From Salibacter halophilus (GTDB lineage: Bacteria; Bacteroidota; Bacteroidia; Flavobacteriales_G; Salibacteraceae): a stretch of 64,000 nucleotides of DNA. The translations under genes and the position numbers were made by a program. Within the stretch, counting starts at the first letter, position 1. Each line of letters starts with the position of its first letter. Below are positions 26,788-28,920 of this stretch, piece by piece. The stretch spans positions 124,001-188,000 of the forward strand of contig NZ_WACR01000005.1 in the NCBI RefSeq assembly GCF_008806325.1, given 5' to 3'. The notes beneath the pieces are model-generated. The model saw only the letters and a list, made by a program, of their open reading frames with translations. It did not search any database and was not told where the DNA came from.

Positions 26788-26809
26788 ACTGATTACTCCA
26801 ATTATACTG

Positions 26810-26840
26810 AAGGCTACTGATTATCGGTAGCCTTTTTTTT
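26810..26840 (+). terminator. Terminator after the lipoprotein gene
   Basis: AAGGCTAC (26810-26817) pairs with GTAGCCTT (26827-26834), followed by eight T in all. Confidence 0.93.
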
Positions 26841-26854
26841 GATGAAACAATAAT

Positions 26855-26874
26855 AAAGGATAAATTTATCTTTT
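26855..26874 (+). promoter_or_regulatory. Candidate Rrf2 operator upstream of its own gene
   Basis: AAAGGATAAATTTATCTTTT contains the perfect 12-base palindrome GATAAATTTATC. It shares 18 of 20 bases with a second site at 27369-27388, before the haemoglobin gene, and overlaps the region expected for the -33 element of the regulator's promoter. Confidence 0.75.
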
Positions 26875-26890
26875 ACTCTGTTTTTCATTG

Positions 26891-26898
26891 TATCTTTG
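26891..26898 (+). promoter_or_regulatory. Promoter -7 box of the Rrf2 gene
   Basis: TATCTTTG, an exact TAnnTTTG, 19 bases before the ATG and 16 bases after the operator candidate. Confidence 0.8.
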
Positions 26899-26917
26899 TG
26901 CCAGATAAAAGAAGTAA

Positions 26918-27352
26918 ATGTTTTCAAAAGCTTGTGAATACGGTATAAAAGCATCAATTATCATCGCTCAGGAAACGATTGATGAAAGCAGAATTGGTAT
27001 TCGAGAAATAGCCAAAAAGACCAATTCTCCCGAAGCTTTCACTGCTAAAATTTTACAGTTACTCACGAAGGCTAAAGTCCTCTACTCTATTAAAGGTCCA
27101 AATGGTGGTTTCTACTTACCAAAAGAGTCGTCAACTAAAACATACCTGAGCAAGATCGTTGAAGCCATTGACGGAGATCAAATTTTTAGAGGTTGCGCAT
27201 TAGGGCTAAACCAATGTGATGCAAAGCGTCCGTGCCCTGTTCATGACAAATTTGTTGATATTAGAGATGACCTGCAGGAGATGCTGGAAACCACAACAAT
27301 TTTTGAATTAGCAAACGGACTCAAAAATGGCGAAACATACCTTGTGAGATAA
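26918..27352 (+). CDS. Rrf2 family iron-sulfur regulator (NsrR/IscR-like)
   Basis: A 144-residue transcription factor with an N-terminal winged helix (SKACEYGIKASIIIAQ... IGIREIAKKTNSPEAFTAKILQLLTKAKVLYSIKGPNGGFYL, residues 3-67) and three Cys at 93, 100 and 106 (CALGLNQC then CP), the spacing used to hold a 2Fe-2S or 4Fe-4S cluster in this family. It heads an operon with a truncated haemoglobin and RIC, so it most likely senses nitric oxide or cluster damage. Two near-identical palindromes, before this gene and before the haemoglobin gene, suggest that it controls both. Confidence 0.9.
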   Translation: MFSKACEYGIKASIIIAQETIDESRIGIREIAKKTNSPEAFTAKILQLLTKAKVLYSIKGPNGGFYLPKESSTKTYLSKIVEAIDGDQIFRGCALGLNQCDAKRPCPVHDKFVDIRDDLQEMLETTTIFELANGLKNGETYLVR

Positions 27353-27368
27353 AAAAATTTAGAATAAT

Positions 27369-27388
27369 AAAGGATAAAATTGTCTTTT
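27369..27388 (+). promoter_or_regulatory. Second candidate Rrf2 operator, next to the haemoglobin start
   Basis: AAAGGATAAAATTGTCTTTT differs from the first site at two of 20 positions and ends one base before the ATG at 27390. Its position over the start codon region suggests a promoter or translation-level block for the downstream genes. Confidence 0.75.
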
Positions 27389-27389
27389 T

Positions 27390-27770
27390 ATGACAAAGCA
27401 AGAAATACTATCAGTCAGTGAAATCAAACAACTCGTTGATTCCTTTTATACGAAAGTTAGAAAGGACGAATTGCTTGGTCCCATATTCGCTGAGAAAATC
27501 GGTGACAACTGGGATGAGCACCTGGATAAAATGTACCGCTTTTGGGAAACAGTTTTGCTCAATGAACACACCTATTTTGGAAGTCCGTTTCCACCTCACG
27601 CCAAACTTCCGGTTCAAAAACAACACTTTGACAAATGGCTCGAACTGTTCAATAAAACTATAGACGAAGAGTTCCAGGGCAGCAAAGCCATGGAAGCCAA
27701 AAGCAGAGCACAAAAAATGGCTTTCATGTTTCAAACAAAAATCGATTACCTGCAAAATCAGAAAAGATGA
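27390..27770 (+). CDS. Group III truncated haemoglobin
   Basis: A 126-residue haem protein. It has the truncated-globin helices: SEIKQLVDSFYTKVRKDELLGPIFAEKIG..W.EHLDKMYRFWETVLLNEHTYFGSPFPPHAKLPVQKQHFDKWLELFNKTIDEEFQG..A..AKSRAQKMAFMFQ. The proximal His is expected at QKQHFDKW (near residue 73). Length and the FGSPFPPHAKLP loop fit group III (TrHbP/Ctb type), proteins linked to nitric oxide and oxygen chemistry. Between the Rrf2 gene and RIC gene; its stop overlaps the next start by four bases. Confidence 0.9.
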   Translation: MTKQEILSVSEIKQLVDSFYTKVRKDELLGPIFAEKIGDNWDEHLDKMYRFWETVLLNEHTYFGSPFPPHAKLPVQKQHFDKWLELFNKTIDEEFQGSKAMEAKSRAQKMAFMFQTKIDYLQNQKR

Positions 27771-28204
27771 ATGCCTCTAGAAGAATTAGTATTTCAGCGA
27801 CATTTTTATGGATCGGATTTGTATGTGCGATCAGTTTTATGGAGGCCTGGCTCAAATTTCAGGCTCCCGGAATAGACACAAAACTCGGACTAGGAATTGG
27901 CAGACTGGTGTTTGGTGCACTCAACAAAGTTGAATGGGTTTTAGCATTGGCCATTGCAATTTCTCATATAATGAACACTAAAATGGTATCGGTCAGAACC
28001 ATTTTCTACATCATTCCGGCCATTATTTTGATCGCACAAACTTTTTACATCCTGCCACAACTCGATGCCCGAGCCGAGATGATCATTCAAAATCAACCTC
28101 TCCCCGATTCCAATTTACACCTCGTATCCGTGATTGCCGAAATAGTAAAAGTGATTTCACTTGTCATCTTCGGAATCAATCAATTTGAAAAAGATAAGAC
28201 ATGA
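27767..28204 (+). CDS. Four-helix membrane protein in the NO-stress operon
   Basis: A 145-residue protein with four hydrophobic segments (about residues 8-27, 50-66, 79-98, 120-138). The first loop carries MEAWLKFQAPGIDTKLGLGIGRLVFGALNKVEW, with conserved-looking charged residues (Glu 26, Lys 29, Arg 46, Glu 55) inside or near the membrane. No named family comes to mind; it loosely recalls small DUF4149-like membrane proteins. The ATG overlaps the haemoglobin stop and its stop overlaps the RIC start (ATGA at both ends), so it is tightly coupled to NO detoxification. The motif at 27991 encodes SVRTI. Confidence 0.75.
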   Translation: MNASRRISISATFLWIGFVCAISFMEAWLKFQAPGIDTKLGLGIGRLVFGALNKVEWVLALAIAISHIMNTKMVSVRTIFYIIPAIILIAQTFYILPQLDARAEMIIQNQPLPDSNLHLVSVIAEIVKVISLVIFGINQFEKDKT

Positions 28205-28920
28205 AATATTCAGAAAATCAAAAAGTTGGCGAAATCGTAGCCGATAATTTCAACTTGGCACAAATCTTTAAAAGTCACGATATCGACTTTTGTTGCAAAG
28301 GAAACAGGACATTAGACGAAGCTTGTGAATCGAGTAAAGTAGATGTGAGTAAACTACTCATCCAGCTCGATAAAGAAAGTGCAAAAACAGACAATGCAAG
28401 AGCAGATTTTGCTTCTATGAATCAGCACGAACTGATCGATTACATTTTGGAAAACCACCATAAATATGTTGAGCAGAAAATACCACAGATCAAAGAGTAT
28501 GTCGCCAAGATCGCTGATGTTCACGATGACCGTCATGAAGAGTTATTTGAAATCAGGCACCTTTTTGAAAAGTCGGCAGGTGAGTTAGCTGCTCACATGA
28601 AGAAAGAAGAAATTATTCTTTTTCCATTTGTCAAAAAGCTCGAGGATGCTGCTGAATCCGGATCAGAACCACCAACACCCGGATTTGGAACAGTTGAAAA
28701 TCCTATCAACATGATGAAAGACGACCACAGTGAGGAAGGTGAACGATTTGCTAAAATCCAGGATCTGACCAATAACTACACGACTCCAAAAGATGGTTGC
28801 AACACTTATGAAGTAACACTGAAAATGCTCAAGGAATTTCACAATGACCTGCTACAGCATATTCATTTAGAAAACAATATTCTATTTCCGCGAGCGCTGG
28901 CAATGGAAAAGACGGTTTAG
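28201..28920 (+). CDS. ric: Iron-sulfur cluster repair di-iron protein (RIC/YtfE/ScdA)
   Basis: Repairs iron-sulfur clusters damaged by nitric oxide or oxidants in the cytoplasm. The 239-residue protein has the N-terminal ScdA/DUF542 domain with HDIDFCCKGNRTLDEAC (residues 26-42) and a hemerythrin-like domain supplying His and Glu ligands: HHKYVEQKIP, HDDRHEELFEI, HMKKEEIILFPF, MKDDHSEEGERF and HLENNILFPRA. Full length for the family. Last gene of the Rrf2-haemoglobin-membrane protein-RIC operon. The motif at 28761 encodes DLT, and a one-mismatch copy lies at 28671. Confidence 0.95.
   Translation: MKYSENQKVGEIVADNFNLAQIFKSHDIDFCCKGNRTLDEACESSKVDVSKLLIQLDKESAKTDNARADFASMNQHELIDYILENHHKYVEQKIPQIKEYVAKIADVHDDRHEELFEIRHLFEKSAGELAAHMKKEEIILFPFVKKLEDAAESGSEPPTPGFGTVENPINMMKDDHSEEGERFAKIQDLTNNYTTPKDGCNTYEVTLKMLKEFHNDLLQHIHLENNILFPRALAMEKTV

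Follow-up and report, generated by a model that had tools for sequence, protein, structure and literature searches.

A predicted Rrf2 operator conserved in Bacteroidia and its promoterless second copy in a probable nitric oxide detoxification operon of Salibacter halophilus

The stretch of Salibacter halophilus DNA analysed here (64 000 nucleotides, hereafter the window) carries an operon for an Rrf2-family regulator, a truncated haemoglobin, a membrane protein and RIC, with two nearly identical palindromes: O1, at the operon promoter, and O2, just behind the regulator gene. We consider it probable (roughly 0.78) that the regulator is an autoregulated iron–sulfur Rrf2 repressor of nitric oxide (NO) and denitrification genes, and that O2, which lacks a promoter, acts as a roadblock or loop anchor. 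The sites, their conservation and geometry, the genes of the regulon and the ligand pattern of the protein were observed; from them we infer DNA binding, repression, NO as the signal and a function for O2.

All features of the operon lie on the forward strand. An intrinsic-terminator-like hairpin of the upstream gene (26809..26839) may mark the operon boundary, a weak signal when taken alone (2 such hairpins found, 2.4 expected by chance). The regulator gene rrf2 (26918..27352; 144 aa) is followed by genes for a truncated haemoglobin of the Bac_globin type (27390..27770), a membrane protein of 145 aa (27767..28204) and RIC (28201..28920), a di-iron Fe–S repair protein of the ScdA/YtfE type, with successive overlaps of 4 nt among these last three. 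This is the gene content proposed in an earlier note on the window, and matches to PF02082, PF01152 and TIGR03652 confirm it for Rrf2, globin and RIC; the membrane protein has no Pfam or NCBIfam match. Relatives of the membrane protein (cluster TM140) accompany globin and RIC in 12 of 80 related loci. Neither of the other two genomes in the genus yielded a close relative of rrf2. Members of the same family are at most 47 per cent identical to the window Rrf2, and Brumimicrobium and flavobacterial proteins 52–62 per cent (best 80 of 587 relatives). The descent of the operon appears patchy on this evidence, possibly as a result of horizontal transfer.

Read directly from the window, site 1 (AAAGGATAAATTTATCTTTT, 26855–26874) and site 2 (AAAGGATAAAATTGTCTTTT, 27369–27388) stand exactly where the earlier note had placed them and, as it stated, share 18 of 20 bases; they differ at the other 2, and the identity runs 6 bases further 5′ (AATAAT on each). 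In the 22-bp form used below, O1 is TAAAGGATAAATTTATCTTTTA (26854..26875, score 21.4), with its GGA core 60 bp upstream of the rrf2 ATG, and O2 is TAAAGGATAAAATTGTCTTTTT (27368..27389, score 20.6), 16 nt past the rrf2 stop codon. Site 2 does abut the haemoglobin gene, ending 1 nt before its ATG. Site 1 had been described as preceding the promoter of the regulator; instead, it overlaps the −33 region, the −7 box lying at 26891–26898.

The pattern shared by the two sites, with up to three mismatches, has five matches in the window, one of which is site 1 read on the opposite strand, against 0.59 expected from shuffling; none of 100 shuffles gave five. A matrix trained on half of the related loci ranks the two sites first and second on the forward strand across all 64 kb. 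Sites 1 and 2 are the sole exact matches anywhere in the 3.12 Mb genome. With up to three mismatches there are 22 matches, and a reversed control pattern gives 32, so the looser matches are background. Three genome-wide pattern searches yielded no further convincing site beyond the operon; one of these patterns has 113 matches, of which 24 loci (L182–L205) were scored with the matrix, and none but the two operon sites reaches 13. The earlier note had suggested a search near hcp, norB and other NO genes as a check; the gene search found no hcp in this genome, so that this part of the check has nothing to find there. Three genes match the COX1 family, two of them above the cutoff, and their loci contain no operator scoring 10 or more. 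The regulon in this genome appears to be limited to the operon.

Comparative genomics backs the earlier assignment of the sites to Rrf2 as putative operators. The 80 named loci compared encode Rrf2 proteins 52–62 per cent identical to that of the window and are the best 80 of 587 relatives, not a random sample. Their operator consensus is WWWMGGAYAAWTTTRTCCKWWW, a 22-bp palindrome conserved in Bacteroidia. A strict pattern detects it upstream of 50 of the 80 rrf2 genes. An iterated matrix, trained on the same 80 loci that it scored, detects it (score above 8) upstream of 65, against 9 of 1600 shuffled upstream regions, and leaves 15 of the 80 genes with no upstream site above that score. The operators upstream of rrf2 mostly start 57–67 bp before the ATG. 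In a separate held-out check, with training and test loci that are related to each other, a matrix trained on half of the loci recovered the operator in 42 of 66 upstream regions (41 of these lying at −75 to −50) and in none of the reversed sequences; scored by a matrix trained without it, O1 reaches 17.4.

The 80 loci, 927 kb in total, contain 108 sites with a score of at least 15, against one in reversed sequence, and 104 of the 108 lie outside called open reading frames (ORFs). The gene next to the site is rrf2 in 59 cases, RIC in 34, NorC in five and the NirK cluster in four. No operator occurs in 14 loci that encode other Rrf2 paralogues. The putative operator is common to Bacteroidia by this comparison, with an uneven distribution. 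No operator was found in the Brumimicrobium locus, which encodes the closest protein among the best 80 of 587 (62 per cent identity), and in several Flavobacterium loci the operator precedes RIC or NorC, not rrf2. Among 13 scored loci from the window's own family (L009–L017, L027, L028, L037 and L042), only L009, L010 and L014 have a site scoring 10 or more; L027 has a weaker dyad with the same geometry.

The motif TAnnTTTG occurs 33–38 bases from the operator start at 67 of the 81 distinct O1 sites, about 0.004 being expected per site. TTTG, the −33 consensus, is found at the −33 distance within the operator in many loci. The window O1 has TTTA instead of TTTG at this place, and a long spacer; its promoter may be weak because of the TTTA. 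TAnnTTTG corresponds to the sigma-A −7 box of flavobacteria in the portion of PMC9723704 consulted, and the window has such a box, TATCTTTG, at 26891..26898, at an offset of 37 from the O1 start. O1 is a predicted promoter operator with the geometry of a repressor site.

The regulon was extended with 20 genomes selected for carrying this rrf2. Searched with its flanks, the operator pattern matches 47 times in these genomes and the control 11 times, and the 47 were merged by hand into 39 places. By hand count, 29 of the 39 lie before genes of the following kinds, with O1 or O2 of the rrf2 gene accounting for 16 of the 29: rrf2 (9), the gene that follows O2 (7), RIC elsewhere (4), globin (4), a tryptophan-dioxygenase-like gene (2), a cytochrome gene before NosZ (2) and NirK (1). 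The other 10 places fall within ORFs, are poorly flanked or face genes unrelated to these. As with NsrR, the predicted operators are thus found both at the regulator's own gene and at NO-detoxification genes.

The earlier note expected the site to provide a searchable regulon motif for the phylum. This holds across the Bacteroidia relatives when the flanks are included and fails for the bare exact core. In a class-wide sample of 395 genomes, 125 of which have an Rrf2 relative at E 1e-25 or better, the bare core is present in 48 of the 125 carriers and 84 of the 270 non-carriers (p=0.095); since it fails to separate the two groups, the flanks are needed. The rrf2-positive genomes have at least 46 exact-core sites among the matches listed, 14 of them at or near rrf2. 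Seventeen of the other 32 listed sites were fetched: in L221 the site precedes RIC, a plausible target, and the other 16 lie within ORFs or have poor flanks.

The tryptophan-dioxygenase-like protein (L262 and L263; cluster c12, 17 loci) scores 98 of 391 bits, below the equivalog cutoff; its gene has an operator upstream, with a −7 box, and it is perhaps a haem protein with a role in NO metabolism. Some loci, from Flavobacterium and elsewhere (L056 and L213), have nrdD, the gene for anaerobic ribonucleotide reductase, behind RIC or behind the operator. A membrane protein of 413 aa (L045:4640-5878), with relatives in 46 of the 80 loci, adjoins the nos genes and rrf2. It has no Pfam or NCBIfam match, contains an HAHSH motif and resembles a haem–copper subunit by eye; it is possibly an unnamed NO-related protein.

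The regulator matches the Rrf2 family PF02082 with 78.3 bits (gathering score 30), and its structure model (pLDDT 92.1) has a winged-helix fold that matches CymR, RsrR, IscR and NsrR. Three cysteines lie in the loop preceding the long helix, as in Fe–S Rrf2 sensors, and a cluster is predicted from this arrangement. In the window protein the putative ligands are spaced C93-x6-C100-x5-C106-x2-H109. The pattern Cys-x6-Cys-x5-Cys-x2-His is found in all 114 proteins compared and Cys-x5-Cys-x5-Cys in none of the 114; residue 8 is a nearly invariant Tyr. According to the part of PMC5411485 available, the ligands are Cys93, Cys99, Cys105 and Asp8 in ScNsrR and Cys92, 98, 104 and His107 in IscR, so that the ScNsrR-type set (Cys-x5-Cys-x5-Cys plus Asp8) is absent from the 114 proteins. 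The curated equivalog models score low: 21.3 bits for NsrR (NF008240, cutoff 182) and 44.5 for IscR (TIGR02010, cutoff 207.55). By its predicted targets the regulator is NsrR-like; by the curated models it is neither NsrR nor IscR.

These features bear on the nature of the signal. The same regulator, acting at the same sites, might respond to Fe–S status, redox state or iron in the manner of IscR or RsrR and not to NO. Such a signal would fit the invariant His109, which aligns with IscR His107, the Tyr in place of the ScNsrR ligand Asp8, and the fold comparison, in which the best solved relatives of the model are CymR, RsrR and IscR, ahead of NsrR. The targets speak against it, as they are genes of NO metabolism and denitrification: RIC, globin, NirK, NorC and the nos cluster. 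We regard this alternative as unlikely and retain NO as the probable signal of the repressor.

The second operator is less widespread than O1. It lies just past rrf2 in 32 of the 88 O1-bearing loci among 114 loci read, two of the 32 coming from one genome. It starts 15–19 nt downstream of the rrf2 stop in 31 of the 32 and 31 nt downstream in the remaining one. One related genome (L224) has the exact order of the window, O1–rrf2–O2–globin. An A-tract, TAAAAAAATTTA in the window (27350..27361), starts at the rrf2 stop codon and is conserved along with O2: the form TAAAAAAATTT is present there in 30 of 31 loci with a canonical O2, in 17 of 21 with a variant site and in 11 of 57 with neither. The variant, which occupies the O2 place in 21 of 109 non-identical loci, keeps the left half of the palindrome and has a changed right half; its pattern was defined after the sequences had been viewed, and all counts given for it are descriptive. 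The variant consensus is AATAAAGGATAAAAAGGTCTTAAAATCTTTA, 15–20 nt after the rrf2 stop (L068, L104, L109, L118, L131, L132 and others), and all 13 occurrences of its strict form in the loci read are at the O2 place.

The effector genes might be served by a second promoter, one whose −7 element is unusual and whose operator is O2. The A-tract lies upstream of O2 where an UP-like element would be placed, and RIC does have an O1-like promoter of its own when it is first in the transcript: in seven such Flavobacterium loci the operator centre is 61–68 bp upstream, with a −7 box at an offset of 35–37 in six. The O2 sites themselves argue otherwise. TAnnTTTG occurs at the O1 offset in none of 31 and within 100 bp upstream in one of 31, and a −7 box so placed would, in the window, fall inside the globin gene. 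A second promoter at O2 is therefore quite improbable. On this evidence O2 is a predicted internal operator that lacks a promoter, unlike the arrangement at O1.

The spacing between O1 and O2 is 510–518 bp in 31 of the 32 pairs and 514 bp in the window, equal to 49.0 turns at 10.5 bp per turn. Rayleigh values for this spacing look strong, but the loci are related to one another and the gene varies little in length. A compensation test on the lengths of the parts between O1 and O2 detected none (p=0.19); the constant spacing follows from constant parts, and helical phase is not evidence in itself and is not claimed. The missing promoter at O2 is a firmer fact than phasing, and a loop and a roadblock both fit it.

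That the palindrome is bound by a regulator other than Rrf2, for example a CRP/FNR-type NO sensor, seems very improbable. The binding of Rrf2 to the palindrome is itself a prediction, and in Flavobacterium the sites at RIC and NorC are several genes away from rrf2. But the palindrome has a fixed place before rrf2 in many lineages and lies beside it again at O2, the other Rrf2 paralogues lack it, and the HcpR site given in the available part of PMC1274295, TTGACnnnnGTCAA, is different. An RNA hairpin over the globin ribosome site was rejected as scarcely credible: a structure can be drawn over O2, but its folding does not surpass that of shuffled sequences (z = −0.25, with 71 of 200 equally good), O2 matches the O1 DNA consensus, and its centre is 12–78 nt from the next start codon in relatives.

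For the autoregulated repressor that we favour, an Rrf2 dimer would bind O1, the palindrome overlapping the −33 region, and block transcription of rrf2, globin, membrane protein and RIC. Damage or nitrosylation of the Fe–S cluster by NO would release Rrf2, and the NO-detoxifying globin and RIC would then be made. O2 would most likely tighten repression of the effector genes, either as an elongation roadblock or by pairing with O1 in a loop of about 49 helical turns. The NO or cluster-stress control suggested earlier is supported by comparative genomics in its operon setting of NO detoxification and Fe–S repair, while the response itself is something we infer. A wider formulation, which we offer tentatively and at less than even odds, is that one Bacteroidia-wide Rrf2 repressor, NsrR-like yet separate and with IscR-like ligands, controls genes of NO, nitrite and N2O reduction through a single palindrome, O1 at the promoter being joined, about 514 bp away and beyond the regulator's own gene, by a promoterless O2 linked to an A-tract, which restrains the effectors more than the regulator through a loop or roadblock.

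A second operator that lacks a promoter is an unusual arrangement. Clade II N2O reducers include Bacteroidota, and PMC6264515, in the part available, notes Rrf2 genes in the clade II nos clusters of Bacteroidetes and calls their role hard to predict; a defined operator, its promoter geometry and a list of targets make this role directly testable. No description of the operator was found in the available portions of the literature searched, which includes PMC1274295, PMC9268430, PMC6264515, PMC9723704, PMC3840689, PMC9338935 and PMC5411485, RegPrecise itself and closed journals being outside its scope.

Compared with known systems, the regulator is closest in role to NsrR, the Rrf2-family NO-sensing repressor of Proteobacteria, Firmicutes and Actinobacteria; the part of PMC1274295 available (Rodionov 2005) assigns NsrR to Proteobacteria and Gram-positives and HcpR to Bacteroides. 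It shares with NsrR the Rrf2 fold, three cysteines, a neighbourhood of globin, RIC and denitrification genes, and autoregulation through a palindromic operator, here predicted, and differs in the x6–x5 cysteine spacing, the Tyr at residue 8 in place of Asp8 and the promoterless second operator. IscR, among the better sequence and fold matches, has three cysteines with a His at the His107 place; here the first cysteine turn has one extra residue, and no Fe–S assembly genes adjoin rrf2 in the loci read. The Rrf2 of clade II nos clusters is similar in that rrf2 stands beside NosZ/D/F/Y/L and NO-detoxification genes; the available text of PMC6264515 notes the gene and gives no binding site for it. 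HcpR of Bacteroides likewise regulates NO stress in the same phylum, but is a CRP/FNR-type protein of another family, with a site of its own.
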